Origin: Ypsolopha sequella | Taxonomy: Eukaryota > Arthropoda > Insecta > Lepidoptera > Ypsolophidae | DNA length: 64,000 nucleotides | Direction of reading: 5' to 3' | Assembly (NCBI GenBank): GCA_934047225.1 | Contig: CAKOHE010000042.1 | Span: 452,001-516,000, forward strand | In this document: one piece after another, positions 14,214 through 60,028 of the stretch | Position numbering within the stretch: the first letter of the stretch is position 1 | Layout of the letters: the number at the start of each line of letters is the position of its first letter | Notes under the pieces: model-generated | Databases searched by the model: none | What the model saw: the letters and a program-made list of their open reading frames with translations, nothing else | Told to the model about the DNA's origin: nothing | Program-made: the position numbers and the translations under genes

Positions 14214-14432
14214 TTCGATATTAATTTCAACTTCATACCTCAAACACTTTTTATTCTGTGCCTCAAACTGTTCTTGAGAAAAGGGATCTTAACACACAGA
14301 TAGACAAACAGACACACAGACAAACGGATAACAAGTGGTTCTATAAAATAATCCCACGAAGATATTTAAAAACATTTTTTGCTTATTATATCACTGAGAC
14401 AGCAGCATTCATTTCGCTTTTTTTCGAAAAAA

Positions 14433-14822
14433 AGCAGCAGCGGGTTATGTTAGAGATACAAATTAATTTGATCTAGTCCCATACTGCAAAAAGGTAATTA
14501 CAACATAAAAAGCAGCAGCGGGTTATGTTAGAGATACAAATTAATTTGATCTAGTCCCATACTGCAAAAAGGTAATTACAACATAAAAAGCAGCAGCGGG
14601 TTATGTTAGAGATACAAATTAATTTGATCTAGTCCCATACTGCAAAAAGGTAATTACAACATAAAAAGCAGCAGCGGGTTATGTTAGAGATACAAATTAA
14701 TTTGATCTAGTCCCATACTGCAAAAAGGTAATTACAACATAAAAAGCAGCAGCGGGTTATGTTAGAGATACAAATTAATTTGATCTAGTCCCATACTGCA
14801 AAAAGGTAATTACAACATAAAA
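14433..14822. repeat. 78-bp tandem array, 5 perfect copies
   Basis: AGCAGCAGCGGGTTATG occurs at 14433, 14511, 14589, 14667 and 14745, and a sixth start (AAAAGCGG) is broken at 14823. I can see no differences among the five units, so the expansion is very recent. Each unit has stops in all plus frames. Confidence 0.95.
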
Positions 14823-15086
14823 AGCGGTTTTATAGTTACCTCCATTGTTTGAAAGATGTTATAATATTACCAAATTTGCCAAATTTATCATAACACCGCT
14901 AGAGAATCAATCACAAGCGATAACGGTCTGTCTTAATTTCTTATTAAGCCACGCCCTCATTACTCTTTTCGGTTCTGATTGGTCTCAGGGTTTTACATAC
15001 TAATTTCATGGGTATCATGACGAGTATCAAGACGAGTGTTCTTTTCTCATTTTTCGTGAAATTGTTTTTGATAGTCGTAGATAAAG

Positions 15087-21285: not shown

Positions 21286-21604
21286 TAGTTAGCATGGTGT
21301 TCGTGCGCATTTTTGGATGACATGACAATCTAGCTCCTAGTTTTTGTTATTATCTGTTGTCATATCTCTGATTGTAGCATGTTGTGTACACTATTAAAAA
21401 AAAAACGCATTTGATAAGCCTGTGAATATTTCGTGAACGTAAAAATAAATTAAGTGACGGTAGATTCCCAACTAACAAAAATGAGAAATACATGAGCGAT
21501 AGAGCGTAAGCCGTTAAGTATTGATGAAATACGAACTGGCTTTATATCCGGATATATTCCCGCTATACCTTCGCTGTATGTCCATTTGGGCACAAATTAA
21601 GCGG

Positions 21605-21955
21605 CATTCGTCAATACAAGAGGGTTACAATAGCAATTCATACACACCGAGGGGCTTAAAAAGCGATACAAGAGCGATTCCTACGTCATTCGGGGTCCAC
21701 TAACTACCTTTAATTTCTATTTGCGATTTCGTCAATATAAGAGGGTTACAATAGCGATTTATACCCACTGAAGAGTCCAAAACGCAATACAAGAGCGATT
21801 TATACGTCATTGGGAGTCCACTAACTACCTTGTATTTCTATTTGCGATTTCGTCCATACAAGAGGGTTACAATAGCGATTTATACCCACTGAGGAGTCTA
21901 AAAAACGATACAAGAGCGAATTATACGTCTTCCTTGAATTTCTATTTGCGATTTG
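21605..21955 (+). repeat. Three imperfect tandem copies of an about 121-bp unit
   Basis: The order GTCAATACAAGAGGGTTACA, TAGCGATTTATACCCACTGA, GATACAAGAGCGAT and TTTCTATTTGCGATTT recurs at about 21610, 21731 and 21852. The third copy loses about 20 bases near 21925. Divergence is around 10%, so it is older than the 128-bp and 78-bp arrays. No coding frame. Confidence 0.85.
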
Positions 21956-21959
21956 AGTC

Positions 21960-22690
21960 ATGTTCCATCTCTTTTTTTCCTTGAAATGTTTAATTTGCGA
22001 ACTCTTTCATTTTAAAACTTAACCTAAAATGGTGTAAGATACAAATAAAGTGAACGATATGCGACGCAAATAAATTGGATGTTATTTTTTCCATGGTATA
22101 GTATTATGTGTGTTGTGAGTGAAATTTCCTTACGAAGATAATTTTACTGGTATTCTATTTATAGTTTTCCACTTCGTTTTTAATACGCCTTCCTAATAAT
22201 GTGAAAGAAGATTGAAAATTAGAGAAATGTGCAAAGAGGTTAGGTTAGATATTTCATTTATTTTCTAAATTATTGGCTGCAACTGCAGCAATGTAGTACT
22301 CCTTCATTCTTTTTAAAAATTCTTTCATTCTTTGTCGTCAATATCCTTAACGAAACGATAATTTCGATGAACCAATTCAACAAAATAAAAATAACAATGG
22401 CGGAATATTTCTTAGGAGTATGTAACTTCTCTGAGCATTTCATACGTCGTTAGGACGTAGAAAGTAGGTGACTAAGTTTTAGAGCGATATGATAGCGATG
22501 TATAAAGCCAAATCATGGCCTTGATAGCAATCGATCATAAAATTTTAGGGTACGGTAGCAAATATATAATGGTTTAAAATGAAATACACTGTAAAAGCTT
22601 TTAATGTTTTTTGTTTTATAAATATAAATAATAGGTACTGATAGACATGATAATTTAAATATAAATATTGTTATCCCATCTATATATTTC
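21960..22690. other. Intergenic stretch between two repeats
   Basis: I see no gene or RNA gene. Scattered AGAGCGAT and TAGCGAT words near 22480-22540 may be an eroded fourth copy of the 121-bp unit. Confidence 0.3.
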
Positions 22691-22715
22691 GGGTCGGTGT
22701 CGGTTACATTACGTA

Positions 22716-23395
22716 TAGTATCGTACCGTACTACCGTACCGTACCGTATAGTACCGTACCGTAACGTACCATGTCGTATAGTATCGTATCATACCATATC
22801 GTACCGTATCGTACCGTACCGTACCGAACCGTACCGTACCGTATCCGTACCGTACCGTACTTCTTCGTACCGTACCATGTCATATTGTATCGTATCATAT
22901 CGTACCGTACCGTATCCGTACCGTACCGTACTTCTTTGTACCGTACCGTATCGTATCGTATCATATCGTACCGTATCGTACCGTACCATACCGTACCGTA
23001 TCGTACCGTACCGTACCGTACTTCTTCGTACCGTACCATGTCGTACCGACCCGTACCGTACCATACCGTATCCGTACCGTACCGTACTTATTCGTACCGT
23101 ACCGTACCATGTCGTACCGTATCGTATCATATCGTACCATGCCGTACCGTACCATACCGAACCGTACCGTATCTTATCGTACCGTACCGTACCTTACCAT
23201 ACCGAACCGTACCGTACCGTATCTTATCGTACCGTATCGTATCGTATCGTATCGTATCGTATCGTATCGTACCTGACCAAACCGTACCGTATCTTATCGT
23301 ACCGTATCGTATCGTATCGTATCGTACCTGACCAAACCGTACCGTACCGTACCGTATCGTATCGTATCGTATCGTATCGTATCATATCGTATCGT

Positions 23396-23396
<1 letters not shown>
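22716..23396. repeat. CGTAC/CGTAT pentanucleotide satellite
   Basis: About 680 bp are built from five-base words CGTAC and CGTAT (ACGGT/ATACG on the other strand), with occasional variants such as CCATG, CTTCTTCGTAC or CCTGACC. Runs of GTACC and runs of GTATC alternate in blocks, and short higher-order blocks recur (for example CCTGACCAAACCGTACCGTA at about 23271 and 23329). Open frames on both strands exist only because a five-base repeat avoids stops; they encode low-complexity SYRTVPYR-like peptides and are not genes. Confidence 0.95.
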
Positions 23397-23433
<37 letters not shown>

Positions 23434-23452
23434 ATTATTATTATTATTATTT
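23397..23452. repeat. ATC then ATT trinucleotide tracts
   Basis: The pentanucleotide satellite passes directly into about eleven ATC units and then about six ATT units. The ATC tract could have grown from the ATC in GTATC. Confidence 0.9.
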
Positions 23453-24159
23453 TAAATTATTATAAATTATTTGAAAAGCTAATTTAACAAAAAACATGAA
23501 TTTCATTGAGAAAGTGTGTACGGAACACTCAAGGCACGAGTCCTACTCGCACCTATACGGCGATGTCACGTATAATAGAAATATAAATCGCTCTTGTGTC
23601 ACTGGTCTAAAATGGCAAATTCTTACTGAATTAGGAGAACATAAACTCTAATAGACTCCATTTAAGCATTATGTAACTGTACGAGAGTATTTAAACTCAA
23701 CTGTACGTGCTTAATTCTTGTATCGGAGTTAGTAATATCGGATATACGGCTGCCATACATTGGCGTTATGATTACACTTTTATATTTCCTAAGCATACTA
23801 TTACTGCCTATTGGAGTTGTAAATCGCTAAAATAGCATTTACTAACTCTTTTCTGCACCTCAAAGCTTCAACAATTGCTGAGAGCATTAGCTAACGTTTT
23901 TCTATGTCTACAAGTAAATTTCACCGCTTTTATAACCCTCTTTTGCGTCCAAGAGGATTTACAGAAGCGAATAAAGCAGCTTGTGTGTTAGTTGGGTTAG
24001 CGGGGGCTCGTACCTCGTAATTCTCCTTTGTATCAACTTCAAGCAAATGCATGCGAAATTCAACGCGTTCAAAAGAGATGGCATGTTAGGCGGGCGTCGT
24101 CGCACGCACGTCAAATTTCAATCTCAAGTTGATGTTGATGAAAATGATAATTACGCGGT

Positions 24160-31167: not shown

Positions 31168-32022
31168 TAGAGATGAAACGGATAGTGATTTGGCCGGATA
31201 CCGGATACCGGATATCCGGCCTGGCACCAGGCCGGATAGCCGGATATCCGGCGGCCGAATATCCGGCCTCAAGATATGCGTTTCGCACTAATTGAGCAAG
31301 TCTAAACATTACGCACCAAGGTGCGTGCGGGTGCAACTGGACGAGATTATTAGTGCATTTTCTAAATCACAATCATACAAATGCTGGTCTGCAAACGCGA
31401 AACAATTTCCGATTCTAACGAAATTCGTAAATATGTATCTTTTGTCTCCTTGCTGCGGTGTATACTGTATATAAATAAATGGACAGGTATCTTTAAATGA
31501 AACCGCGTAATCTACTGTTCATACTGAACAAATTTCCCAAAGTAACATATTGAAAAAAAATGAACCTGCCCGCCCTCAGAATAACTCAAAATGAGTAAGG
31601 AAACCTGATTTTTTTTTTTATTTCCACAAGTATGTTTCTTTGGAAAAGTTGTTCAGTATGATTCTTAGACCATGTGTTTTTATTAAAAGATACCTGTTGA
31701 GTTACATCCGGTATATTGTGAGAGCAAAAGAAGCTGGTGTAATGTATGAAGAAAAGCACAAACGTTTATTTCCAACAATTGCTGTAAAGCTTGTCTTTAT
31801 CTACCATAGCTCAACTCTTATTCACTTTATGAATTTGAGTTTAGATTATTGAATCATTGATACAATAAAATTATTTTGTGATTTAAACGACTTTTTGTAT
31901 GCTAAGTTAAGTATCCGGTATCCGGCCGGATACTATCTACTATCCGGCCGGATACCGGATACCAAAAATATGGCCGGATAGGCCGGATACCGGATAGTAA
32001 CCGGATATCCGTTTCATCTCTA
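31168..32022. mobile_element. hAT-superfamily deletion derivative (855 bp)
   Basis: The ends are TAGAGATGAAACGG and its reverse complement, directly flanked by an identical 8-bp CTCACAAG at 31160-31167 and 32023-32030. An 8-bp duplication with a (C/T)AGAGATG-type end is the hallmark of hAT transposons. Both subterminal regions are packed with CCGGATA/TATCCGG words (about 31185-31265 and 31910-32010), probably transposase-binding sites. A remnant of the transposase C-terminus lies inside (next entry). Confidence 0.88.
31640..31852 (+). pseudogene. hAT transposase C-terminal remnant
   Basis: Near the end of this frame the residues AKEAGVMYEEKHKRLFPTI are followed by VKLVFIYHS. The hAT dimerisation region typically ends with a G-x-x-Y-x-x-x-R-x-R-L-x-P segment followed by a hydrophobic L-x-F stretch, and the spacing here fits. 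The catalytic core and the BED finger are absent. The frame is enclosed by the terminal repeats of the 855-bp element and is in the expected orientation. Confidence 0.55.
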
Positions 32023-32030
32023 CTCACAAG

Positions 32031-34425
32031 CATATAATGCGCATACAAATCATCGCCGCTGTTCGGCAAAGTTCGTATTACCTTACACTTTCTATACAAT
32101 GAATAAGATCACGTGGTACGTCCGGTCACTTGGCTTTCGATTTCTATACACATTACATTTTTGAGAGTACTGTATTGGGGGGGGGAATAAAAAATCAGTG
32201 ACATTATAAATTTAATAATTTTACTACCAACTACTTACTGATCCCATGCATCTTACGCTCAAAGAAAATGGAAACTTATTACAGCGCAATAAGAGTCTAA
32301 CAGGCTACTACGGTTGTCATACAGTAACTAAAGATCGAATAAATACCACGAATAAACATATTAAGGACACCTAGTTATTTTTTAAAGATCCTCTTACTTA
32401 CTTAATTTCAAGCTCGATTCTTAAATATACGTAAAACTATGCACACAATCAGTTATGCAATAAGCACCACCTAACTAAGTACGTATCAGTTCGCGAGCAC
32501 CCGATGCTCTAATTTGATGACACTACATGTGATAATGAATAAAACGGCAAATTTATAATAATAAAACAAACAAGTACCTTTTTACAGAAGAAGCAAAAAA
32601 GTATTCCTTATCACCATAATCACAAACCAACTGCAGCAACGAATAACAAGGTCATTTAAAAGCTGTGGTCAAGGCATCGACCTCATATGTAGGTCGATAG
32701 GTCAAGGTCCACACCTGCGAGTTGAACGACCGACACAAACCGAGGCGCAGGTGTCGCTTGCGCTAATGTTGAATTTTGAATTAAAATGTTGCTTACGCGC
32801 AGGTAATAGGGTGTCAATTAAGTAATTTGATGTTTGCGCCAGGAAGCGATGCGCTATGTCTGAAAGCGTGTGATTGAACTGTTGCCGCGCGTGCAACCTT
32901 GCGCTTCATAACTTGTATTATTTTATTATGCATAAGTACACGCATAGATGCGTAAGTATGATGATCTCGGCAGAATTTCGTATTGGCATTCGACCGACTT
33001 CATCCGTTCATCCGTCGTACCACAAAATAATTATTTTGTAGTCGTACGTAAGTGTCTATGTGTACGTAGTACGTACGCACGTGCGGCTGTTTTCTAAGGG
33101 GTTATTTTGTGGTGTTCATTCCTTAAAAAATTGCAGCATGGCTACATTGAGCTATGATTACTACGTGGTTTAAGGCGATCACCATCGCCAAATTGGCAGC
33201 TCGATATTTGTCAGTAATAATATCAACGGAAACGACATTGAAATAACGTTCATATCAGCGCGCAATGCATAGTGGCTGTTATGACGCTCGCTGCGTCCTT
33301 GGTAGGGCGAAATAGGAGAAAATTATACTTTTCACTTGGACGCGATTGTTCGATTGAATAATCCTTTGTTATGTTTATAGCTATCAAGTTTATCTATTTA
33401 TCAAAGCATAAATGAATTCAATCGGCTAAGCCACTTAGTTAGGAGCAGTAGGAAATTCAAGCCAAAAAACACCATTTAGCTAATGAATTTTTTCATGTAG
33501 AAGTTTTGGTGGTATGAAAAAGAAAAATGTTGCATATGTTGTCTAAAAGCTGATCATTCATAATAAATTTTTACATTATTTTTGGTTTGGCCGTAAACGA
33601 GGAGTAGGCTTTAGAAAGTACCCATTTGGCAATAGTAAGGCCCTTAATGACTTTATTTGAACCTTGACCTTGAGTTGCCGTGTTTATTCAATTGTAGGGT
33701 TCCGACTCTTTTTACGCTGTAATAATATCCTATTTTGTTTGAGGATTGCGGCTTTCCGTGGCCGCGGCCTTCTGTCTGATGTACTGGCTGGGCCAGCTGA
33801 TTAAAAACTAAGAATTAATTATCTCAAAATCGAATAATTTTAGAGGGTATGTTTCTTTGTGACTGAATAACTTTCCTTCAATTAAAATGGTTCTTGTGTG
33901 CGGTAAATAAGGTGTCAATTAATTTGATGTTATTAGAAATAGAATACAATGAAAATGACATCAGTGGACGGGGGAGTTGCGCGGGGTGGTATGTTGATTC
34001 ATAGACCCTGCGTTCCGAAATAGAATTATATCGCTAAAATCGACTACGAAAGTATGAAGTGAATGGCTTATGATCTATTGTAATTCTATTACGGACCGCA
34101 GGGAGAGTGAACGAGCGAACCTTGTGTCTGTGTTGTCGTATTAATTCATTTGAAGCGTCGACTCTTATTGCGCTGTAATATGTGCCCATTTCGTTTGACG
34201 GTAGTACGGGCACGGTATCGTAACGTAAGTCACGATTCGTGACGTATCAATCAGCTGGTATGAGAATGTAGCGTATTGTAACTTGCGCGAGTATAAAGTT
34301 ACCTTTGCGTATGATATATCTCGCAAACGAAGCATTTTAAAGAATACTTATGTTTCTTAATATTATTAGAGTGCATTACAAACTAGAAAATATCAATCAG
34401 AAACCAATCCAAAGACAAGAATTTG
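32031..34425. other. Long stretch without a recognised gene
   Basis: The part at 32640-33170 is richer in CpG (AACGACCGACACAAACCGAG, GTACGTAGTACGTACGCACG) and could be a promoter-like region, but no exon with splice sites was recognised; the minus frame at 32702-32896 has no known motif. An inverted copy of the 27640 repeat is at 33172-33345. The rest looks like unique intergenic or intronic DNA. Confidence 0.3.
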
Positions 34426-34431
34426 AAAAAA

Positions 34432-34512
34432 ATCCCCGGGCCAGGGATTCGAACCTGCGACCTCATGTTATCAAGACAAGCACGCTACCAATTGCGCCAC
34501 CGAGGTTCCTAC
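34432..34512 (-). ncRNA. tRNA-like sequence (tRNA-derived repeat head or tRNA pseudogene)
   Basis: On the minus strand it has an A-box-like TGGCGCAATTGG and a perfect B box GGTTCGAATCC about 35 bases later, followed by a stem-closing CTGGC. The anticodon arm can be drawn with TGA in the loop but has a mispair, and serine tRNAs need a long variable arm that is missing. The acceptor pairing is poor. It therefore looks like a tRNA-derived SINE head or tRNA relic, not a working tRNA gene. Confidence 0.45.
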
Positions 34513-43649: not shown

Positions 43650-44166
43650 ATGTCAGACAAGTATTGCTGCGTTCCTTTGTGCAGAGAGAGCGGAGGTATG
43701 TCAAATTATACCATTAAAAGCATTGATTGAAACAAAGTCTAGGTTATTTACCCCATCTAGCTGGGCTTGCTTCAGTGCTGAAGGAATTAAGAAATTTTCT
43801 TTTTTCATATAGTGCCCTAGCATACAAGGGGGCACTATGGGAAAAAACCTAATCTACACTGACCAAATACCATAATGAGATATTGTTTTTTGTCAGAATA
43901 GCCTGGGTATTCTTTAACTTGACTCACAATTCCAATATGTTTATTTGTTTTAGGTATGCATCAAGTTATTCATGGGTTCCCTAACCCTGATAAAGATAAA
44001 AAACGATACAACATGTGGTTGTATTCAATTGGGAGTGATATCTTGGGGTTAGAAAATGAGCGAATATACAAGTATCGCCGTGTATGTCACTCGCACTTTG
44101 AAGATAGATATCTTTGTCGCAACAACAAAATCAGCAATGTTGCTGTGCCAACTTAACGTCTGCGAG
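43650..44166 (+). pseudogene. P-type gene exons 1-2: THAP zinc finger, with stop codon
   Basis: Exon 1 (ATG 43650 to donor G|GTATGT at 43695) gives MSDKYCCVPLC, holding the first cysteine pair of the C2CH finger (C-x4-C). Exon 2 (after TTTTAG at 43953) continues HGFP, then W near residue 32, then CHSHF, the second C and H, then NVAVPT. This is the THAP order (C2, HxFP, W, CxxHF, AVPT) that reads short DNA sites. Directly after AVPT comes TAA (44154-44156), and the following codons read RLRG to the donor at 44166/44167. In THAP proteins the AVP block is normally followed by a hydrophobic residue, so the TAA is most simply a substituted leucine codon. It truncates the product to about 84 residues. 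Confidence 0.9.
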
Positions 44167-44639: not shown

Positions 44640-44751
44640 GTAACCAAATTTTTTTAGCTGTGCACTTCGAGTTGCCAAAATTTATATTGAATTCACCCAA
44701 ATTTCATACTAATTTTGACAGCTCGAAGTGCACAGTTAAAAAAATTGGGTA
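44640..44751. mobile_element. Hairpin element in intron 4
   Basis: AACCAAATTTTTTTAGCTGT and GCACTTCGAGTTGCCAAAAT are mirrored by ATTTTGACAGCTCGAAGTGC and ACAGTTAAAAAAATTGGGT. It is about 110 bp in total, a typical small MITE inside an intron. Confidence 0.7.
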
Positions 44752-45026
44752 ATACCTTAGAATCTGGTGTAGTTTAACCCAATTACTGCAAAGAAAAGGA
44801 AGGATCAAATATTTAACAGTCGTATGTACTTATGTATTATTGTTCAGATATTCCTCTGTAACATCACCCCTATTACAACAATCTTTCATCGAACAAAAAT
44901 TTGTCTTAGTTGCAAAAATGTCCTAGGATGTATATATACATATATTAAATCTAAAATGGCATCCTTGCTAATTCAAGAAAGGTGCATCTGATTACATGAA
45001 AACATTAACACATTTATTTGTTTTAG

Positions 45027-45104
45027 CTCCAAAACCATTGATGCTTGAAGAATTGCTCCCTTCAAATACTTTACATTCAGACACTAAGAACCAACAAATT
45101 CCTG
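45027..45104 (+). pseudogene. P-type gene exon 5 (78 bp, duplicated)
   Basis: It is bounded by TTTTAG and G|GTAAGT. It encodes APKPLMLEELLPSNTLHSDT and six more residues. Exon 6 repeats it with about ten nucleotide changes, and the flanking intron (ATCTGATTACAT upstream of the acceptor) is also repeated. It is an in-frame, phase-1 linker module that can be gained or lost without changing the frame. Confidence 0.75.
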
Positions 45105-45165
45105 GTAAGTTGCTTGTCTTTACTGCAAGTGTCCTAGTCTATAATTATATTATATATATATTATA

Positions 45166-45562
45166 TTTTTTTCAATGCATGTGCTCGTAAAGGCCCACTT
45201 TTTATGCATCAAAACCGAACAGAAAGTCGATTATTTTGCCCTAGGGCTTTATTATTATTTGTTTTTTAATTTATTTACAATGGTTGGCTAACCTGAATCC
45301 TTTCTTGTGTACCATAAATCTCATACTTTTTTTCCACTGTTTAACGGCTCTGGATACCTAGTCCTTTTGAGCCAATTACAATTTAAAGTTCACAAAATTA
45401 TATTTGTTTTATTTCCTCACACTATGCATTGAAAAACGTAGTATGATACACGGGCGTAAAAGCAATAAATCACTCGGTTACGTTTAAAACACTCGCTACG
45501 CTCGTGTTTTAAATCGTCCTCGTAATTTATTCCTTTTCGCCCTAGTAGCATAAACTACTATA
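45166..45562 (+). repeat. Dispersed repeat in intron 5, copy 2
   Basis: It has the same landmarks as 15087-15441 (AAAGGCCCACTTTTTATGCA to GTAGCATAAACTACTA), with an additional CACTCGCTACGCTCGTGTTT palindromic piece. It separates the duplicated exons 5 and 6, so it inserted after the exon duplication or beside it. Confidence 0.8.
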
Positions 45563-45625
45563 ATCCTTGGTAAATCAAGATAAGTACATCTGATTACATC
45601 ACAATAACAGATTTATTAATTTCAG

Positions 45626-45703
45626 CTCCAAAACCATTGACGCTTGAAGAAGTACTCCCTTCAAATACATTGAATTCAGACACCAAGAGCCAACACATTC
45701 CTG
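45626..45703 (+). pseudogene. P-type gene exon 6 (78 bp, copy of exon 5)
   Basis: It is bounded by TTTCAG and G|GTAAGT and encodes APKPLTLEEVLPSNTLNSDT and six more residues. Length, phase and both splice sites are kept. The next recognisable exon starts only at 56432, so intron 6 is about 10.7 kb, nearly all of it the 81-bp array. Confidence 0.75.
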
Positions 45704-46670
45704 GTAAGTTTCTTTTTAATCCATGTCTTATTTTATTATCAATTTAATTTAAGAGCCGTGCTCTTGTTTGTGGAGTCCTCTGTATTCACTTCTGCACTCC
45801 GCCTTTTCTTTAACTTTTTGATTATATATTATTATATATAATATTAATTGATACAAATCAAAATTTACTTGCTTTTTCACCTGATCCATGAGTGTTCTCC
45901 TGGGCCCTAAATATATAATATATTTATAGTTTAATTTATTTAATAATAAAATGTGTCTGGTAGCAACTAAACTGCTGCCGTTAATTCGAGAGAATGATGA
46001 CAGATGGAGTGTGGCGATATCTCGAAAAAATACTACAAGTCAACAAGAGCTTCTTCACGACAAAAATAAATACAGGCACGTTAAAAAAATATCAACGGTA
46101 CAACAAATGGGACGAAATAAATCCAAATCATGATTATTTAAACTTTTTTTATAAATAAAAACCCTGGAATAGAATATATATACGATCTTATTATTTGGTA
46201 AGGTATATCAGTTTTATAATACGACAACACTGCCTTACACCGCAGATATTATAAACCTTTTTCTGAAATGTCGATTCAAAAAGTCGAGGATTCATACTGC
46301 AGGCATTATGATTGCTGATTTGACAGAAATAACTTGACAGTATCGCTAATAGACAACTTTTCGCCAAAAATAATTTTTTTTGCGCTTTTTTTTAACTTTT
46401 ACGTAGAAATTGAGTCAGCTGATTCATTAAGTTTTGTACTAGGAAGTGGAAAATATATACGACAAAAATAATTTTTATTAACAAATGGGACCTTTTAACG
46501 ATATACAATCTACCCTAAAATCATCATGATAAATATAAAATATTGAAATGCAAAACAGTAAAAAAAAGGTTTTATCCCCTGACATTTGCAAACGTCACCA
46601 TTCTCTCGAATGAACGGCCGGAGTTTAGTTGCCGACTGTTTAAATAAAACACATTTGGTGACTGACTTAG
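45704..46670. other. Intron 6, part before the array
   Basis: This is AT-rich sequence with a short frame at 45951-46133 that shows no domain and no splice sites in the required phase. Its end (CATTTGGTGACTGACTTAG) partly resembles the end of an array unit (CTCTGTTACTTAG), suggesting where the first unit came from. Confidence 0.4.
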
Positions 46671-49600
46671 TGTCAATGTGCCACTACTGATACTATCTCC
46701 ACCTCAGACACCACAGCCCCCTCAGGCTACAGCTACAGCTCTGTTACTTAGTGTCAATGTGCCACTACTGATACTATCTACACCTCAGACACCACAGCCC
46801 CCTCAGGCTACAGCTACAGCTCTGTTACTTAGTGTCAATGTGCCACTACTGATACTATCTACACCTCAGACACCACAGCCCCCTCAGGCTACAGCTACAG
46901 CTCTGTTACTTAGTGTCAATGTGCCACTACTGATACTATCTACACCTCAGACACCACAGCCCCCTCAGGCTACAGCTACAGCTCTGTTACTTAGTGTCAA
47001 TGTGCCACTACTGATACTATCTCCACCTCAGACACCACAGCCCCCTCAGGCTACAGCTACAGCTCTGTTACTTAGTGTCAATGTGCCACTACTGATACTA
47101 TCTACACCTCAGACACCACAGCCCCCTCAGGCTACAGCTACAGCTCTGTTACTTAGTGTCAATGTGCCACTACTGATACTATCTACACCTCAGACACCAC
47201 AGCCCCCTCAGGCTACAGCTACAGCTCTGTTACTTAGTGTCAATGTGCCACTACTGATACTATCTACACCTCAGACACCACAGCCCCCTCAGGCTACAGC
47301 TACAGCTCTGTTACTTAGTGTCAATGTGCCACTACTGATACTATCTACACCTCAGACACCACAGCCCCCTCAGGCTACAGCTACAGCTCTGTTACTTAGT
47401 GTCAATGTGCCACTACTGATACTATCTACACCTCAGACACCACAGCCCCCTCAGGCTACAGCTACAGCTCTGTTACTTAGTGTCAATGTGCCACTACTGA
47501 TACTATCTCCACCTCAGACACCACAGCCCCCTCAGGCTACAGCTACAGCTCTGTTACTTAGTGTCAATGTGCCACTACTGATACTATCTCCACCTCAGAC
47601 ACCACAGCCCCCTCAGGCTACAGCTACAGCTCTGTTACTTAGTGTCAATGTGCCACTACTGATACTATCTACACCTCAGACACCACAGCCCCCTCAGGCT
47701 ACAGCTACAGCTCTGTTACTTAGTGTCAATGTGCCACTACTGATACTATCTCCACCTCAGACACCACAGCCCCCTCAGGCTACAGCTACAGCTCTGTTAC
47801 TTAGTGTCAATGTGCCACTACTGATACTATCTCCACCTCAGACACCACAGCCCCCTCAGGCTACAGCTACAGCTCTGTTACTTAGTGTCAATGTGCCACT
47901 ACTGATACTATCTACACCTCAGACACCACAGCCCCCTCAGGCTACAGCTACAGCTCTGTTACTTAGTGTCAATGTGCCACTACTGATACTATCTCCACCT
48001 CAGACACCACAGCCCCCTCAGGCTACAGCTACAGCTCTGTTACTTAGTGTCAATGTGCCACTACTGATACTATCTACACCTCAGACACCACAGCCCCCTC
48101 AGGCTACAGCTACAGCTCTGTTACTTAGTGTCAATGTGCCACTACTGATACTATCTACACCTCAGACACCACAGCCCCCTCAGGCTACAGCTACAGCTCT
48201 GTTACTTAGTGTCAATGTGCCACTACTGATACTATCTCCACCTCAGACACCACAGCCCCCTCAGGCTACAGCTACAGCTCTGTTACTTAGTGTCAATGTG
48301 CCACTACTGATACTATCTACACCTCAGACACCACAGCCCCCTCAGGCTACAGCTACAGCTCTGTTACTTAGTGTCAATGTGCCACTACTGATACTATCTC
48401 CACCTCAGACACCACAGCCCCCTCAGGCTACAGCTACAGCTCTGTTACTTAGTGTCAATGTGCCACTACTGATACTATCTACACCTCAGACACCACAGCC
48501 CCCTCAGGCTACAGCTACAGCTCTGTTACTTAGTGTCAATGTGCCACTACTGATACTATCTCCACCTCAGACACCACAGCCCCCTCAGGCTACAGCTACA
48601 GCTCTGTTACTTAGTGTCAATGTGCCACTACTGATACTATCTACACCTCAGACACCACAGCCCCCTCAGGCTACAGCTACAGCTCTGTTACTTAGTGTCA
48701 ATGTGCCACTACTGATACTATCTACACCTCAGACACCACAGCCCCCTCAGGCTACAGCTACAGCTCTGTTACTTAGTGTCAATGTGCCACTACTGATACT
48801 ATCTCCACCTCAGACACCACAGCCCCCTCAGGCTACAGCTACAGCTCTGTTACTTAGTGTCAATGTGCCACTACTGATACTATCTACACCTCAGACACCA
48901 CAGCCCCCTCAGGCTACAGCTACAGCTCTGTTACTTAGTGTCAATGTGCCACTACTGATACTATCTACACCTCAGACACCACAGCCCCCTCAGGCTACAG
49001 CTACAGCTCTGTTACTTAGTGTCAATGTGCCACTACTGATACTATCTACACCTCAGACACCACAGCCCCCTCAGGCTACAGCTACAGCTCTGTTACTTAG
49101 TGTCAATGTGCCACTACTGATACTATCTCCACCTCAGACACCACAGCCCCCTCAGGCTACAGCTACAGCTCTGTTACTTAGTGTCAATGTGCCACTACTG
49201 ATACTATCTCCACCTCAGACACCACAGCCCCCTCAGGCTACAGCTACAGCTCTGTTACTTAGTGTCAATGTGCCACTACTGATACTATCTACACCTCAGA
49301 CACCACAGCCCCCTCAGGCTACAGCTACAGCTCTGTTACTTAGTGTCAATGTGCCACTACTGATACTATCTCCACCTCAGACACCACAGCCCCCTCAGGC
49401 TACAGCTACAGCTCTGTTACTTAGTGTCAATGTGCCACTACTGATACTATCTACACCTCAGACACCACAGCCCCCTCAGGCTACAGCTACAGCTCTGTTA
49501 CTTAGTGTCAATGTGCCACTACTGATACTATCTACACCTCAGACACCACAGCCCCCTCAGGCTACAGCTACAGCTCTGTTACTTAGTGTCAATGTGCCAC

Positions 49601-52600
49601 TACTGATACTATCTCCACCTCAGACACCACAGCCCCCTCAGGCTACAGCTACAGCTCTGTTACTTAGTGTCAATGTGCCACTACTGATACTATCTACACC
49701 TCAGACACCACAGCCCCCTCAGGCTACAGCTACAGCTCTGTTACTTAGTGTCAATGTGCCACTACTGATACTATCTCCACCTCAGACACCACAGCCCCCT
49801 CAGGCTACAGCTACAGCTCTGTTACTTAGTGTCAATGTGCCACTACTGATACTATCTACACCTCAGACACCACAGCCCCCTCAGGCTACAGCTACAGCTC
49901 TGTTACTTAGTGTCAATGTGCCACTACTGATACTATCTACACCTCAGACACCACAGCCCCCTCAGGCTACAGCTACAGCTCTGTTACTTAGTGTCAATGT
50001 GCCACTACTGATACTATCTCCACCTCAGACACCACAGCCCCCTCAGGCTACAGCTACAGCTCTGTTACTTAGTGTCAATGTGCCACTACTGATACTATCT
50101 ACACCTCAGACACCACAGCCCCCTCAGGCTACAGCTACAGCTCTGTTACTTAGTGTCAATGTGCCACTACTGATACTATCTACACCTCAGACACCACAGC
50201 CCCCTCAGGCTACAGCTACAGCTCTGTTACTTAGTGTCAATGTGCCACTACTGATACTATCTACACCTCAGACACCACAGCCCCCTCAGGCTACAGCTAC
50301 AGCTCTGTTACTTAGTGTCAATGTGCCACTACTGATACTATCTACACCTCAGACACCACAGCCCCCTCAGGCTACAGCTACAGCTCTGTTACTTAGTGTC
50401 AATGTGCCACTACTGATACTATCTACACCTCAGACACCACAGCCCCCTCAGGCTACAGCTACAGCTCTGTTACTTAGTGTCAATGTGCCACTACTGATAC
50501 TATCTCCACCTCAGACACCACAGCCCCCTCAGGCTACAGCTACAGCTCTGTTACTTAGTGTCAATGTGCCACTACTGATACTATCTCCACCTCAGACACC
50601 ACAGCCCCCTCAGGCTACAGCTACAGCTCTGTTACTTAGTGTCAATGTGCCACTACTGATACTATCTACACCTCAGACACCACAGCCCCCTCAGGCTACA
50701 GCTACAGCTCTGTTACTTAGTGTCAATGTGCCACTACTGATACTATCTACACCTCAGACACCACAGCCCCCTCAGGCTACAGCTACAGCTCTGTTACTTA
50801 GTGTCAATGTGCCACTACTGATACTATCTACACCTCAGACACCACAGCCCCCTCAGGCTACAGCTACAGCTCTGTTACTTAGTGTCAATGTGCCACTACT
50901 GATACTATCTACACCTCAGACACCACAGCCCCCTCAGGCTACAGCTACAGCTCTGTTACTTAGTGTCAATGTGCCACTACTGATACTATCTACACCTCAG
51001 ACACCACAGCCCCCTCAGGCTACAGCTACAGCTCTGTTACTTAGTGTCAATGTGCCACTACTGATACTATCTACACCTCAGACACCACAGCCCCCTCAGG
51101 CTACAGCTACAGCTCTGTTACTTAGTGTCAATGTGCCACTACTGATACTATCTACACCTCAGACACCACAGCCCCCTCAGGCTACAGCTACAGCTCTGTT
51201 ACTTAGTGTCAATGTGCCACTACTGATACTATCTACACCTCAGACACCACAGCCCCCTCAGGCTACAGCTACAGCTCTGTTACTTAGTGTCAATGTGCCA
51301 CTACTGATACTATCTCCACCTCAGACACCACAGCCCCCTCAGGCTACAGCTACAGCTCTGTTACTTAGTGTCAATGTGCCACTACTGATACTATCTACAC
51401 CTCAGACACCACAGCCCCCTCAGGCTACAGCTACAGCTCTGTTACTTAGTGTCAATGTGCCACTACTGATACTATCTACACCTCAGACACCACAGCCCCC
51501 TCAGGCTACAGCTACAGCTCTGTTACTTAGTGTCAATGTGCCACTACTGATACTATCTACACCTCAGTCACCACAGCCCCCTCAGGCTACAGCTACAGCT
51601 CTGTTACTTAGTGTCAATGTGCCACTACTGATACTATCTCCACCTCAGACACCACAGCCCCCTCAGGCTACAGCTACAGCTCTGTTACTTAGTGTCAATG
51701 TGCCACTACTGATACTATCTACACCTCAGACACCACAGCCCCCTCAGGCTACAGCTACAGCTCTGTTACTTAGTGTCAATGTGCCACTACTGATACTATC
51801 TACACCTCAGACACCACAGCCCCCTCAGGCTACAGCTACAGCTCTGTTACTTAGTGTCAATGTGCCACTACTGATACTATCTACACCTCAGACACCACAG
51901 CCCCCTCAGGCTACAGCTACAGCTCTGTTACTTAGTGTCAATGTGCCACTACTGATACTATCTACACCTCAGACACCACAGCCCCCTCAGGCTACAGCTA
52001 CAGCTCTGTTACTTAGTGTCAATGTGCCACTACTGATACTATCTACACCTCAGACACCACAGCCCCCTCAGGCTACAGCTACAGCTCTGTTACTTAGTGT
52101 CAATGTGCCACTACTGATACTATCTCCACCTCAGACACCACAGCCCCCTCAGGCTACAGCTACAGCTCTGTTACTTAGTGTCAATGTGCCACTACTGATA
52201 CTATCTCCACCTCAGACACCACAGCCCCCTCAGGCTACAGCTACAGCTCTGTTACTTAGTGTCAATGTGCCACTACTGATACTATCTACACCTCAGACAC
52301 CACAGCCCCCTCAGGCTACAGCTACAGCTCTGTTACTTAGTGTCAATGTGCCACTACTGATACTATCTACACCTCAGACACCACAGCCCCCTCAGGCTAC
52401 AGCTACAGCTCTGTTACTTAGTGTCAATGTGCCACTACTGATACTATCTACACCTCAGACACCACAGCCCCCTCAGGCTACAGCTACAGCTCTGTTACTT
52501 AGTGTCAATGTGCCACTACTGATACTATCTACACCTCAGACACCACAGCCCCCTCAGGCTACAGCTACAGCTCTGTTACTTAGTGTCAATGTGCCACTAC

Positions 52601-55600
52601 TGATACTATCTACACCTCAGACACCACAGCCCCCTCAGGCTACAGCTACAGCTCTGTTACTTAGTGTCAATGTGCCACTACTGATACTATCTACACCTCA
52701 GACACCACAGCCCCCTCAGGCTACAGCTACAGCTCTGTTACTTAGTGTCAATGTGCCACTACTGATACTATCTACACCTCAGACACCACAGCCCCCTCAG
52801 GCTACAGCTACAGCTCTGTTACTTAGTGTCAATGTGCCACTACTGATACTATCTACACCTCAGACACCACAGCCCCCTCAGGCTACAGCTACAGCTCTGT
52901 TACTTAGTGTCAATGTGCCACTACTGATACTATCTCCACCTCAGACACCACAGCCCCCTCAGGCTACAGCTACAGCTCTGTTACTTAGTGTCAATGTGCC
53001 ACTACTGATACTATCTACACCTCAGACACCACAGCCCCCTCAGGCTACAGCTACAGCTCTGTTACTTAGTGTCAATGTGCCACTACTGATACTATCTCCA
53101 CCTCAGACACCACAGCCCCCTCAGGCTACAGCTACAGCTCTGTTACTTAGTGTCAATGTGCCACTACTGATACTATCTCCACCTCAGACACCACAGCCCC
53201 CTCAGGCTACAGCTACAGCTCTGTTACTTAGTGTCAATGTGCCACTACTGATACTATCTCCACCTCAGACACCACAGCCCCCTCAGGCTACAGCTACAGC
53301 TCTGTTACTTAGTGTCAATGTGCCACTACTGATACTATCTCCACCTCAGACACCACAGCCCCCTCAGGCTACAGCTACAGCTCTGTTACTTAGTGTCAAT
53401 GTGCCACTACTGATACTATCTACACCTCAGACACCACAGCCCCCTCAGGCTACAGCTACAGCTCTGTTACTTAGTGTCAATGTGCCACTACTGATACTAT
53501 CTCCACCTCAGACACCACAGCCCCCTCAGGCTACAGCTACAGCTCTGTTACTTAGTGTCAATGTGCCACTACTGATACTATCTACACCTCAGACACCACA
53601 GCCCCCTCAGGCTACAGCTACAGCTCTGTTACTTAGTGTCAATGTGCCACTACTGATACTATCTCCACCTCAGACACCACAGCCCCCTCAGGCTACAGCT
53701 ACAGCTCTGTTACTTAGTGTCAATGTGCCACTACTGATACTATCTACACCTCGGACACCACAGCCCCCTCAGGCTACAGCTACAGCTCTGTTACTTAGTG
53801 TCAATGTGCCACTACTGATACTATCTCCACCTCAGACACCACAGCCCCCTCAGGCTACAGCTACAGCTCTGTTACTTAGTGTCAATGTGCCACTACTGAT
53901 ACTATCTACACCTCAGACACCACAGCCCCCTCAGGCTACAGCTACAGCTCTGTTACTTAGTGTCAATGTGCCACTACTGATACTATCTCCACCTCAGACA
54001 CCACAGCCCCCTCAGGCTACAGCTACAGCTCTGTTACTTAGTGTCAATGTGCCACTACTGATACTATCTACACCTCAGACACCACAGCCCCCTCAGGCTA
54101 CAGCTACAGCTCTGTTACTTAGTGTCAATGTGCCACTACTGATACTATCTACACCTCAGACACCACAGCCCCCTCAGGCTACAGCTACAGCTCTGTTACT
54201 TAGTGTCAATGTGCCACTACTGATACTATCTACACCTCAGACACCACAGCCCCCTCAGGCTACAGCTACAGCTCTGTTACTTAGTGTCAATGTGCCACTA
54301 CTGATACTATCTACACCTCAGACACCACAGCCCCCTCAGGCTACAGCTACAGCTCTGTTACTTAGTGTCAATGTGCCACTACTGATACTATCTACACCTC
54401 AGACACCACAGCCCCCTCAGGCTACAGCTACAGCTCTGTTACTTAGTGTCAATGTGCCACTACTGATACTATCTACACCTCAGACACCACAGCCCCCTCA
54501 GGCTACAGCTACAGCTCTGTTACTTAGTGTCAATGTGCCACTACTGATACTATCTACACCTCAGACACCACAGCCCCCTCAGGCTACAGCTACAGCTCTG
54601 TTACTTAGTGTCAATGTGCCACTACTGATACTATCTACACCTCAGACACCACAGCCCCCTCAGGCTACAGCTACAGCTCTGTTACTTAGTGTCAATGTGC
54701 CACTACTGATACTATCTACACCTCAGACACCACAGCCCCCTCAGGCTACAGCTACAGCTCTGTTACTTAGTGTCAATGTGCCACTACTGATACTATCTCC
54801 ACCTCAGACACCACAGCCCCCTCAGGCTACAGCTACAGCTCTGTTACTTAGTGTCAATGTGCCACTACTGATACTATCTACACCTCAGACACCACAGCCC
54901 CCTCAGGCTACAGCTACAGCTCTGTTACTTAGTGTCAATGTGCCACTACTGATACTATCTACACCTCAGACACCACAGCCCCCTCAGGCTACAGCTACAG
55001 CTCTGTTACTTAGTGTCAATGTGCCACTACTGATACTATCTACACCTCAGACACCACAGCCCCCTCAGGCTACAGCTACAGCTCTGTTACTTAGTGTCAA
55101 TGTGCCACTACTGATACTATCTACACCTCAGACACCACAGCCCCCTCAGGCTACAGCTACAGCTCTGTTACTTAGTGTCAATGTGCCACTACTGATACTA
55201 TCTCCACCTCAGACACCACAGCCCCCTCAGGCTACAGCTACAGCTCTGTTACTTAGTGTCAATGTGCCACTACTGATACTATCTCCACCTCAGACACCAC
55301 AGCCCCCTCAGGCTACAGCTACAGCTCTGTTACTTAGTGTCAATGTGCCACTACTGATACTATCTACACCTCAGACACCACAGCCCCCTCAGGCTACAGC
55401 TACAGCTCTGTTACTTAGTGTCAATGTGCCACTACTGATACTATCTCCACCTCAGACACCACAGCCCCCTCAGGCTACAGCTACAGCTCTGTTACTTAGT
55501 GTCAATGTGCCACTACTGATACTATCTCCACCTCAGACACCACAGCCCCCTCAGGCTACAGCTACAGCTCTGTTACTTAGTGTCAATGTGCCACTACTGA

Positions 55601-56140
55601 TACTATCTCCACCTCAGACACCACAGCCCCCTCAGGCTACAGCTACAGCTCTGTTACTTAGTGTCAATGTGCCACTACTGATACTATCTCCACCTCAGAC
55701 ACCACAGCCCCCTCAGGCTACAGCTACAGCTCTGTTACTTAGTGTCAATGTGCCACTACTGATACTATCTCCACCTCAGACACCACAGCCCCCTCAGGCT
55801 ACAGCTACAGCTCTGTTACTTAGTGTCAATGTGCCACTACTGATACTATCTCCACCTCAGACACCACAGCCCCCTCAGGCTACAGCTACAGCTCTGTTAC
55901 TTAGTGTCAATGTGCCACTACTGATACTATCTCCACCTCAGACACCACAGCCCCCTCAGGCTACAGCTACAGCTCTGTTACTTAGTGTCAATGTGCCACT
56001 ACTGATACTATCTCCACCTCAGACACCACAGCCCCCTCAGGCTACAGCTACAGCTCTGTTACTTAGTGTCAATGTGCCACTACCGATACTATCTCCACCT
56101 CAGACACCACAGCCCCCTCAGGCTACAGCTACAGCTCTGC
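46671..56140 (+). repeat. Giant minisatellite, 117 units of exactly 81 bp
   Basis: TGTCAATGTGCCACTACTGA starts at 46671 and the last unit starts at 56067, which is 116 x 81 bp with no length change anywhere. Units differ almost only at one base (unit position 29, A or C). The rare extra changes are one A-to-T (unit 61, near 51568), one A-to-G (unit 88, near 53753) and one T-to-C in the last unit. Because 81 is 27 x 3, one plus-strand frame stays open for 3,166 codons, while every other frame on both strands has a stop in each unit. Each unit ends CTGTTACTTAG, which resembles a splice acceptor, and holds CTGAT, which resembles a branch site. Confidence 0.98.
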
Positions 56141-56431
56141 CCACCGACAGCGCTTCACAGCAAGAAAACAAAAAATAAGGCGGGAGACTCTCTGTCCCGC
56201 CTTTCAAGGCAAAGTTTTAATGGCCAAAAGGCAAAAAACAAAGAAGAACGATCAAAAAAAAAAAATGATACTATCTAGGTCACACCTTCTAGACAAGCAT
56301 GCTCCATCTCTGGTGAAAAAAATATTGTGACTAATCTTCTGGGCCAGTGTTTCCCAGGGGCATATTATATTGCAAACTTATATAATTGTATTAAGAATAT
56401 TTCTTAATTTCACGTGTTTCTACTTTTACAG
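56141..56431. other. Intron 6, part after the array
   Basis: Unique sequence with a poly-A run (56253-56264) and a TGATACTATCTAGG near 56266 that echoes unit positions 18-28 of the array (TGATACTATCT). It ends in a good acceptor (TTTTACAG at 56431). Some of it could have been an exon, since lysine-rich frames run through it, but no supported splice pair was found. Confidence 0.4.
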
Positions 56432-57801
56432 GAAAAAAGGATGCTGCTCGCAAGATTACAACAAAGAAAATGTTCACCCTGGCAGAACATGAGATGTACA
56501 ACAAAATTGTTGCTGCAAGAATAAAATTATGCAAACTGAAAAATTAACTAAGAAAACAGTCGGCTCACATAAAAGCAGCAAAAAAACTGGCAAATAATCC
56601 TGCAGCCTTAGAAGTCTTTGAGAATTGCTCAAGTACTGCAAAATTACTGATGCAGATGCAATGGCGGGAGAACAAAAAAAAGGAGAAAGGTCGTTTCACG
56701 CTAGAAGAAAAGATTACTGCCTTGTCGATTTTGAAACAAAGTGCCACAGGTTATCGATTTCTACGGAAATTAACTATTTTACCTGCCGAACAGACATTAA
56801 TAAAGCTCATACAAAGGTGTAATCTGAGACCAGGGATAAATAAAAACGTATTTTCACAGTTAAAAAATAAAGCTAAAAATATGACAACGGAGCAAAAGCT
56901 GTGCGTGGTTTTGTTTGACGAAGTTTCGTTAAAAGCCAACGTCACATACCAAGAAAGAAAGACCGCATAACGGAACTTGTTGATAATGGGCATAATAGAA
57001 TAGCAGAATTTGCAGACCACGCCCAAGTTTTCATGGTGCGTGGTCTCGTACATAATTATAAACAAGCAGTGTACTACACTGTTTCAAAAAGTGCAACCAA
57101 GGGACCTGAGTTGGCAAAACAATTTAAAGAAGTTGTCAGAGGACTGGAAGAAGCAGGGTTGATAGTGGTGGCATCAGTCTGTGACCAGGGAACCAACAAC
57201 AGACAGGCTCTCAAAATATTAATCAATGAGACCCGGGGAGTCTATCTAAGAAGAGAAGAAGAACCAAAAGAAAATATTATACTGATAGATGATCAAGAAA
57301 TCATTCCTATCTATGACCCCCCACACCTTAAAGGAATGAGAAATAATTTATTAACAAAAAATCTAAACTACACTTCAAAAGAAGGTGTGACGAAAACCGC
57401 CAAGTGGTCTCTATGGCGGCACGTCTACACGTTTGCCGCATTCCTTTTAGATATCAATAATCACGTACAATTAAGTATAAATAAGGATTCATCTTTCATC
57501 AATATACATTACATACTTAACCATCAAACTAATAACAACTATTATATTTTATACCGCCTCCAAATTGGTGACCCCGACGTGATTATTCATATCTAAAAGG
57601 AATGCGGCAAACGTGTAGAAGTGCCGCCATAGTCTCATTTACAGCAACTCTACAAAGAAAATCCAGGCTACAAAGGCATCAGACTGATCCCAAAACTTAC
57701 AGAAAATCATGTCAACCCAGAAAAACTCAACAAAATGAAGGTTAAATTTGCCTCGCAAGTTTTTAGCCGAACCATGGCATCTAATATGGGATACCTAGCA
57801 G
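56432..57801 (+). pseudogene. P-type gene exon 7: transposase core with stop, frameshift and inserted element
   Basis: The exon starts KKDAARKIT and contains a basic coiled segment, then the P-transposase N-domain (RFTLEEKITALSILKQS, then GYRFLRKL). The catalytic-type motif DEVSLK has its Asp at 56917-56919; a second Asp lies in VCDQGTNN at 57183-57185, followed by YDPPHLKGMRNNLLTKN, a hallmark of P-type enzymes. A TAA interrupts at 56545-56547. One base is missing within 56951-56960, bringing a TAA at 56968. The element at 57412-57631 adds another stop at 57594. The reading then resumes with LYKENPGYKG and FASQVFSRTMASNMGYLAG to the donor G|GTAATG. Apart from these lesions the protein is well preserved, so decay is not very old, or some breaks are assembly errors. 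Confidence 0.88.
57412..57631. mobile_element. MITE inserted in the transposase exon (220 bp, GTCTC target duplication)
   Basis: The ends (TATGGCGGCACGTCTACACG and CGTGTAGAAGTGCCGCCATA) are reverse complements over about 43 bp with one mismatch. GTCTC flanks both sides (57407-57411 and 57632-57636). Removing the element and one GTCTC restores a continuous W-S-H-L-Q-Q reading across the site, which proves an insertion after the gene existed. Because C and G at the border are also complementary, the target duplication could be as short as TCT. With its duplication the insert is 225 bp, so it keeps frame but carries a stop. Confidence 0.9.
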
Positions 57802-57841
57802 GTAATGTTTCACATCTTTTCTCTGTACTTAATATACTCTC

Positions 57842-58030
57842 TTCCCTTTTAGAATGCATACTACTCCACCAAGCCAAGTATGGATGGCAAAAAAAATAAA
57901 ATGAAAATGGGTGCAGCAAAAGTCCGTCAACATTGAAATTTAAATTCAAGTTATATCTATTGCAATATCAGAATTAATTCGCCATCCATTCCACCCAGGT
58001 GCCTACTTGGCTTGGTGGAGTAGTACAGAA
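57842..58030. repeat. Inverted pair in intron 7
   Basis: ACTACTCCACCAAGCCAAGT at about 57859 is matched in reverse complement by ACTTGGCTTGGTGGAGTAGT at about 58005. Shorter ATGGATGG/CCATCCAT words lie next to them. It could fold the intron or be a remnant of another small element. Confidence 0.7.
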
Positions 58031-58174
58031 ATTGTAGAAAAGAAAAAGTTTAAACTTGCAATAATACCTACGTGCAAAATTGATAACTTTGTCAAATGCC
58101 ACCCTCTTTTTACAAACACATGATTTACTGTGTTAATGTAATTTAATTGGATAAACATTTCTTATTGTTTTCAG

Positions 58175-59268
58175 ACAAGGGTATTCTTCCTGCAGAATGC
58201 AAAGAAACAGCGGATTTGTTGATATTCATGGACAACATGTTTGATAGCGTAAATGGAAGCTACATGAAAAATAAACATGCGAAGCCACTGCTAGGTCCGG
58301 CCACGCCGAACTCTGTCCACCATAAAACATGGGAAGAAGGTATGGAAGTGTTTAAGTCGATGGCATTTGAAACGTCCAAGGGGAAAAAAGAAAATGTTCC
58401 CACGGTTGCCAATTGGATGTGGACACTTAAGGGAATAAAAGTTTTATTGAAGAAACTGAAAGATGACTTTAACATTACATCCGTTTGGTTGCGACACCTA
58501 AATCAGGATCCCCTCGAAAACTTCGGAGCGGTGAGAAGTCATGGATGTCGCAACACTAACCCGACTTGTGACCAATTTGAGGCAGCTTTCGCCACTCTTT
58601 TGATAAATAATTTAAACAGTGTTCACACTCGGGGGAAAAATTGCGAAGCAGATTTTTGTGATGCTTTGCACACTCTCATCATTGACAAAAATGTAGAAGC
58701 AACGCCGACCTGTACTTTTGATTTTGCGTCTATAATCGATTTTGATTTTACTCCAGTAGAGAGCAAAGAAAATGACCCTCGCATAATTGCTCCAATCCAA
58801 TACATGAGTGGATATTTTTTAAAGAAAGCAAAATCCAGCGTTTTTAAATCGTGCACTGATTGCAATGCCAATTTGTCATCCAGTAATGAAATAGAATATA
58901 TTAAGTACAGGGAATATACAGGTCGACGATGGCTTTGCACTCCCAGCAATGATTTGATAAAGGCGATATCAAATATGCAAGACATATTAAATCAAATGAT
59001 TAGAGATCATTTTGAAATTGATAATATGAAAGAAATTTTAAAAACTGCTATAGTGATCTTGGTTGATTTTAAATTTATACAGTGTAATGTGCACAAAGAT
59101 AAATTAATTAATCATTTAATTAGCATTGTAATTAGATGTCTGACTTTCAATTATTGTAAAAACATAAATCAAATATTAATTGGGAGAAGGCAAGTTGATG
59201 ATGATGAGGACAAGTGGCAAATGAAAGCAAAGAAATTTAATAAATGTTTTATAAGGCACCATAAATAG
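58175..59268 (+). pseudogene. P-type gene exon 8: catalytic Glu and C-terminal domain, intact
   Basis: Starting after TTTTCAG at 58174 and ending with TAG at 59266-59268, 364 codons are open. The order is KGILPAE, then HKTWEEGMEVF, VPTVANWMWTLKGI, then LNQDPLENFGAVRS. Its Glu (58516-58518) is the third acidic catalytic residue of P-type enzymes. IQYMSGYFLKKA, a Cys pair (SCTDCNA) and REY lie in the C-terminal domain, as in THAP9-like proteins. No stop is present, unlike in the other exons. AATAAA follows at 59277. Preservation of this exon suggests that loss of function was recent. Confidence 0.88.
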
Positions 59269-59299
59269 TAAGTTGAATAAATAATTAATTTCAAATTAA

Positions 59300-60028
59300 T
59301 GTATTTCATTTATGAGAATCCCTTCTCCAAGATATACTAATAGAAAGGAGTTAGTATGTATATGTATAGTATATATGGCTATGGGTACCTGTGCGCTAGC
59401 TATAGATGGATACATTTTCCTCTTTGGATAGATATAACGGGATTTAGTTCTGACTAATGAAAATAGATGGCGACAAAAACGCATTACCCATTTTGATGTC
59501 AAAGACAGGGCTCTATTTCTGTATATAATAATGTATATAATAATGTACTCTGTGCACTCATCTATCATTGATCAAAAATATAATAAATAAGTGCTGAGAG
59601 AGGAATAATTATTTTTAAATTATCTATTTTTGGTTATTAGTCTGAAAGTTTGAAAAATAATATAAAAACCTTCGTAACTCGGAGACCATTCATTTTCGAC
59701 ACCTAGTAGATAGGACTTAATTCGTTGGAAATGATCTCTAGTATAACCCCTTTCAAGGAATAGGTCGAATTACCAAGCACCCTGTATACATACAGTAGTT
59801 AAGATAAGTACGCCATTGATGTGTAATTTGGTAACACACACAGCAAAATTAGCATGGTGTCTTGGACGACATTAACAACAAAGGACATTTCAATGTCATG
59901 CATTAACTATTACTTATATATACCCATTACATACCTACATACAAACAAACCAAAATCGCAACATCTAAACACAGGTGCACACTTTTAATTAATTAGGATT
60001 TGTATATAAATAGATGAATAGTTTGTTA
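59300..60028. other. Region downstream of the P-type gene
   Basis: It holds no supported gene. The frame at 59296-59568 (minus) has no domain. If the P-type gene was a transposon its right terminal repeat should be here, but none was seen. Confidence 0.35.

Follow-up and report, generated by a model that had tools for sequence, protein, structure and literature searches.

A young minisatellite, very probably born at a LINE junction in the intron of a dead P-element/THAP-type transposon of Ypsolopha sequella

A 64,000-bp stretch of the genome of the moth Ypsolopha sequella (assembly GCA_934047225.1, contig CAKOHE010000042.1, positions 452,001 to 516,000 of the forward strand; hereafter the window) carries an array of 117 units of 81 bp inside a broken P-element/THAP-type transposase gene, a dead transposon copy. 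This array is very probably a young minisatellite that arose stepwise at the junction of a long interspersed nuclear element (LINE) within an intron of the dead transposon. In the order of steps that we infer, a short LINE 3' end with its poly-A tail would have inserted into the intron and produced an 11-bp target-site duplication. A 79-bp stretch over the 5' junction (34 bp of intron and 45 bp of LINE) would then have been duplicated once in tandem with a TT filler, giving the 81-bp unit, which would have been amplified to tens or more than 100 copies by recombination or replication steps moving several units each, possibly through unequal exchange, break-induced replication or a circle-based process. 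Duplication of larger segments would also have copied the locus, with the length of each array and the order of its unit variants changing independently. The same genome holds the empty site, the target-site duplication, an identifiable LINE, a single scar of the founding join and arrays of differing copy number.

Tandem Repeats Finder (TRF) called the array at 46665-56139 with a period of 81, 117.0 copies, 99% matches and 0% indels; by register it starts at 46665 rather than at 46671. The earlier note on this DNA had counted 117 units with all 116 steps of exactly 81 bp, which TRF and a unit-by-unit reading both confirm. It had also ascribed almost all variation to a single A/C site per unit, and this too is borne out: 71 of the 117 units are identical to the consensus and 43 differ by A35C only (114 together), with A at site 35 in 73 units and C in 44. 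Outside this site the array has three substitutions, namely A44T in unit 61, A42G in unit 88 and T24C in the edge unit 117, which also carries C at site 35 and has CC in place of TT at positions 80-81. G+C content is 0.38 in one half of the unit and 0.60 in the other. Minisatellite units measure about 10-100 bp, and the head-to-tail 81-bp units, together with a copy number ranging from 29 to 117 across seven paralogous arrays, place the array in this class. Scans of public DNA with the unit core and with a hairpin in the LINE 3' untranslated region returned no matches, and no paper title naming this array was found in the literature, which shows little. Pfam matches to the array (DUF498, MTD and HolB_lid) fell below cut-off, with no stretch passing on its own, and were set aside as composition noise.

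Each unit is composed of 34 bp of ancestral intron, including the 11-bp target-site duplication, followed by 45 bp of the LINE 3' end and the bases TT. On the 3' side of the array, 112 bases lead to a 12-base poly-A and then to TGATACTATCTA, which is identical to positions 24-35 of the A-type unit. Among the runs of at least eight A outside the array (55 on both strands, counting the one at 56254), only one is followed by a 12-base unit match, the next best being 6 bases, and a unit match reaches 11 bases at 3 of 16,975 random places. The poly-A with its 12-base match suggested a poly-A retroelement flanked by a target-site duplication, with its 5' end at unit position 35/36. The segment from 56142 to 56265, which contains the hairpin, folds better than its shuffles (RNA z -2.47, equalled by 1 of 200; DNA z -3.42, by 0 of 200).

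The window's own assembly (867 Mb in 151 contigs) was searched with the unit plus tail, giving 64 candidates, of which 40 were scored; the counts are thus lower bounds. A LINE 5' end near unit position 36 predicts that dispersed copies should match from about that position, and the matches listed agree: with the exception of the seven arrays, they align from query positions 33-36 only, or from 53 in two cases. The dispersed copies share the LINE 3' end. A protein search with the tail gave no match, and it was the genome search that resolved the identity of the element: in one extended copy (L008), a 526-aa frame closes with the peptide found in the LINE at the array (..TDSASQQENKK) and matches RVT_1 at E 2.6e-41. 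Another open frame follows it. The LINE may be Jockey-like. With a target-site duplication and a matching empty site, a poly-A tail at a defined 3' end and a reverse-transcriptase element as its source, the fragment has the features of a target-primed LINE insertion.

The empty site predicted from this insertion was found at seven places in the genome, four of them exact, two with one mismatch and one with two, while the reversed control gave none. Six of the seven were read (L051-L056). Five of these (L052-L056) show intron, one copy of the target and intron again, without LINE, array or the inverted-repeat insertion resembling a miniature inverted-repeat transposable element (MITE) that lies 5' of the array in the window. 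The 34 intron bases of the unit stand there once; L051 shares only their inner part, having the common core and right side with a different left flank. Base 35 is A in the extended LINE copies and after the target copy of the empty sites, versus C in the first whole unit of all seven arrays. The contigs carrying the six empty sites that were read measure 26-34 Mb.

The joins between units read ..CTCTG-TT-ACTTAG.., the left outer edge ..GACTG-ACTTAG and the right outer edge ..CTCTG-CCCACC. Since TT closes 116 of the 117 units and is missing from both outer edges, the first repeat was most simply made by one duplication with a 2-base filler, from which the other units would descend.

The host gene is recognizable from THAP, RNase H N-terminal, GTP-binding insertion and RNase H C-terminal domains, all above cut-off; the helix-turn-helix (HTH) domain PF12017 stays below it (19.1 bits versus 23). 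In-frame stops, a frame break and a MITE-like insertion disrupt the relic. A protein search returned 28 homologues, the strongest of which carry Lepidoptera names such as Chilo, Parnassius and Heliothis, and a PDB search with a transposase piece gave 0 matches. The earlier note had set the array inside an old, broken gene; this description can now be made more specific, the gene being a P-element-type transposase relic and the array's place in it a predicted intron. We read the array as intronic because the flanking exons fit in phase, with gtaagt after the exon at 45626-45703 and tttacag before the exon from 56432, and because none of nine aligned relatives has an array-like segment between the neighbouring exons; in that alignment the window row was joined by hand at the predicted exon phase of the intron.

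The full unit with its tail occurs at at least seven places. Besides the 117 units in the window (contig C72), the arrays hold 33 units on C133, 56 on C104, 47 and 48 on C115, 29 on C142 and 93 on C141, so that six further arrays of 29-93 units sit on five other contigs, in related duplicated segments. Units of these sister arrays were located by a match to the initial 23 bases that allowed at most three substitutions, leaving uncounted the truncated unit with which the second C115 array starts on the left. Over all seven arrays the steps are exactly 81 bp in 416 of 416 cases, and the 423 units differ, besides site 35 and the edge CC, by A44T, A42G and C33A once each and by T24C, which occurs in three arrays and four units in all. 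A distinct left edge, with the truncated unit, marks the second C115 array, which lies beside a copy of the right flank ending near 58466, a layout expected from array-mediated duplication. The seven arrays were found on contigs of 0.14-0.76 Mb (C72, C104, C115, C133, C141 and C142), in partly duplicated segments; these contigs may be W-linked or unmerged haplotypes.

Several of these arrays have nearly identical left flanks. Over the aligned rows, the left flank differs from that of C133 by 2 mismatches in 25,154 bases; excluded from this count are rows in which other repeats were paired, one row of 209 bp at 94%, and the window segments 21467-23996 and 31168-32020, for which C133 has no collinear match. 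It differs from C104 by 3 mismatches and 4 gap positions in 25,346, and from C142 by 1 mismatch and 1 gap position in 9,580, in two blocks, C142 being rearranged farther left. In C115 and C141, left sharing is limited to 44736-46664, at 97.8-99.5%. Identity over the first 1.6 kb of the right flank is 99.7-99.9%; from 56142 to 59918 it is 98.4-98.5% for C133, C104 and C141 (15-18 mismatches and 41 gap positions), and rows of C142 and C115 run to 64000 at 99.7-99.9%, except for one C115 row at 95.9% and one row at 99.5%. Near-identical left surroundings thus hold 117, 33, 56 and 29 units. Copy number and A/C order differ even beside a flank with 2 mismatches in 25,154 bases, which indicates that repeat number changes faster than point mutations accumulate. 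The C133 flank gives an age of about 10,000 generations if there was no gene conversion. The private substitutions of the array give 77,000-109,000 generations at the rates of 0.41e-8 and 0.29e-8 stated in the consulted part of PMC10048334, a rough figure because homogenisation resets substitutions. The very recent expansion or strong homogenisation proposed in the earlier note is supported by the single TT scar, the 29-117-unit paralogs, the near-identical flanks and the shuffled-like A/C orders.

The order of A and C units bears on the mode of growth. Like neighbours number 64 of 116, and simulation rules out growth by one unit at a time, which leaves one-letter runs with a mean of 115 like neighbours of 116. 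Simulated growth by blocks with a mean of 2-10 units, with or without turnover, fits the observed neighbour counts. The last 12 units contain 11 C, compared with 33 of the 105 elsewhere (Fisher 7.6e-05, for a stretch picked post hoc and units that are non-independent).

Some results weigh against the birth at a LINE junction as set out above, or leave parts of it less firm. No locus was found with the LINE and a single unit, and among the matches listed the full-length places are the seven arrays, 7 of 7. The copy numbers come from one assembly. The neighbour counts are explained equally well by block growth and by an A/C order that is random and independent; a 20-unit block repeat (units 40-59 and 60-79) is rare under such an order (0.01) and arose by chance in 11 and 14 of 2,000 trials. 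With a stricter information score it was reached in 50 of 3,000, and once one copy is removed nothing further stands out (633 of 1,500), so that the repeat is only suggestive. No A/C order is shared between arrays beyond shuffles (0 of 21 pairs, lowest 15 of 200), and the growth steps are therefore untraceable.

The exact spacing was the feature for which the earlier note had raised a constraint on length. Phasing or protein binding, for instance, could hold the units 81 bp apart. All 416 steps are indeed exact. With three private substitutions and an assumed indel:substitution ratio of 0.1-0.2, however, only 0.3-0.6 indels are expected and the probability of none is 0.55-0.74, which makes zero the likeliest result; too few mutations have occurred for indels to be expected at that ratio, and the constraint is not needed. 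The 128-bp array elsewhere in the window, whose unit is not a multiple of three, is equally regular, and the 81-bp unit folds no better than its shuffles (DNA z 0.52 and -0.70). A length constraint is therefore highly improbable, and the array has presumably not been under selection; a single founder and low age account for the spacing. It is also conceivable that the assembler over-expanded a short array, the reading having been made from the assembly. The scattered A/C order, the singletons and the edge-specific units argue against this, as do six other arrays of differing lengths on five other contigs, and we regard it as very unlikely, even though individual array lengths may still be off.

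It could also be supposed that the array is an exon for a protein of 27-residue repeats, its unit kept at a multiple of three by selection: 81 is such a multiple, and one frame stays open for 3,170 codons. That long frame is incidental, because among near-identical units one open 81-bp frame opens throughout; the other five frames are closed. The segment stands between the neighbouring exons in none of the nine aligned relatives and is thus not a conserved exon, the full repeat occurs in 0 of the 28 homologues (a single 4-residue piece in three, P0021, P0024 and P0028), and two protein searches with array pieces were empty (no match at E 10 among 8 candidates, and none at E 1 among 7,983 scored). 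Moreover, 34 of the 81 bp are intron present at the empty sites, and the host gene is broken. A coding repeat is accordingly extremely improbable.

The recurrent short LINE tail might itself be a discrete retroelement resembling a short interspersed nuclear element (SINE), with a 5' end prone to starting tandem arrays. This doubtful reading arises because a 28-bp array of 9.2 copies (99% matches), built from the 5' end of the LINE tail in a separate insertion (L023, 1581-1837), joins the 81-bp array in using the same 5' end. A script found an own target-site duplication around the recurrent 5' end at 4 of 23 dispersed loci (L010, L015, L022 and L026), and duplications were seen by eye at L009, L013 and L023; the common start CACCTCAG was seen by eye in about 8 of the 23 (L009, L010, L013, L015, L021, L022, L023 and L026). 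If the reading were true, the element would trigger satellite birth simply by inserting. On contig C28, around 16.0 Mb, five LINE copies (L008, L012, L024, L028 and L029) cluster and resemble one another downstream of the poly-A (..ACGTAAGC or ..AGTAAGC); they are possibly site-preferring.

A minisatellite born at a LINE junction is of a known kind. In the parts consulted, accounts of minisatellites and satellites derived from transposable elements (TEs) describe short segments that are duplicated and then amplified, including composite units (PMC6947457, PMC12628747), and the 81-bp unit likewise holds a TE fragment that would have been duplicated and amplified. Unlike the satellites reviewed in those parts, it spans one LINE/host junction, with empty site, insertion and founding scar all visible. 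The Tetris TIR-220 satellite of Drosophila virilis, as described in part of PMC4079207, also forms kb-size arrays from part of a transposon, with repeats internal to inverted repeats, whereas 34 of the 81 bp of the moth unit are host intron. The record of birth is unusually complete: the origins of arrays are usually lost, and this one genome combines the site before insertion, the insertion itself, the join that founded the array and seven descendants of unequal length. The interest of the array lies in this completeness and in the speed of turnover. The flanks serve as a clock for comparing how fast arrays change with how fast point mutations arise, and the A/C site is a natural two-letter barcode for fitting models of array growth.

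Table. Positions in the window of the array, the LINE insertion and the pieces of the host relic
Feature	Position	Strand	Remarks
81-bp x 117 array	46665..56141	+	unit 117 ends CC, not TT
Intron-derived part of unit 1 (positions 1-34)	46665..46698	+	in every unit
Target-site duplication, 5' copy TGATACTATCT	46688..46698	+	11 bp, unit positions 24-34
LINE 3' fragment with poly-A	56095..56265	+	begins in unit 117; first ~45 bp in every unit
Hairpin in LINE 3' untranslated region	56179..56201	+	from the fold of 56142-56265
Poly-A tail, 12 A	56254..56265	+	
Target-site duplication, 3' copy	56266..56276	+	match to A-type units extends to 56277
THAP-domain exons of relic	43650..44166	+	PF05485 E 6.9e-07; one in-frame stop
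Linker exon	45027..45104	+	
Linker exon duplicate	45626..45703	+	599 bp downstream; 87% identical over 114 bp
Predicted intron holding the array	45704..56431	+	from exon phase and relatives
Inverted-repeat (MITE-like) insertion 5' of array	45970..46625	.	inverted arms; 2-bp TA overlap at ends
P-type transposase HTH and RNase H N-terminal pieces	56432..57410	+	PF21787 E 2.3e-10 and 6.4e-16; stop and frame break
MITE-like insertion in transposase exon	57411..57632	.	56-bp arms, 96% complementary
GTP-binding insertion domain and RNase H C-terminal pieces	57633..59268	+	PF21788 E 4.3e-06, PF21789 E 2.4e-10

Other repeats lie elsewhere in the window. The 128-bp array at 5208-7002 has 14 full copies in register and three singletons, and in all 14 a 51-bp part of the unit aligns at 86-88% to a tRNA-derived element at 34358-34506 on the minus strand; ARAGORN called no tRNA in the window. 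Like the 81-bp array it is regular and has TE sequence in its unit, but it differs in element, unit and scale. A 78-bp array of 5.1 copies with 100% matches lies at 14429-14825, a piece of a Mariner-like transposase at 20213-20680 (HTH_48 and HTH_32 matches below cut-off), and a 5-bp GTACC-type array of about 136 copies with 77% matches at 22718-23396.

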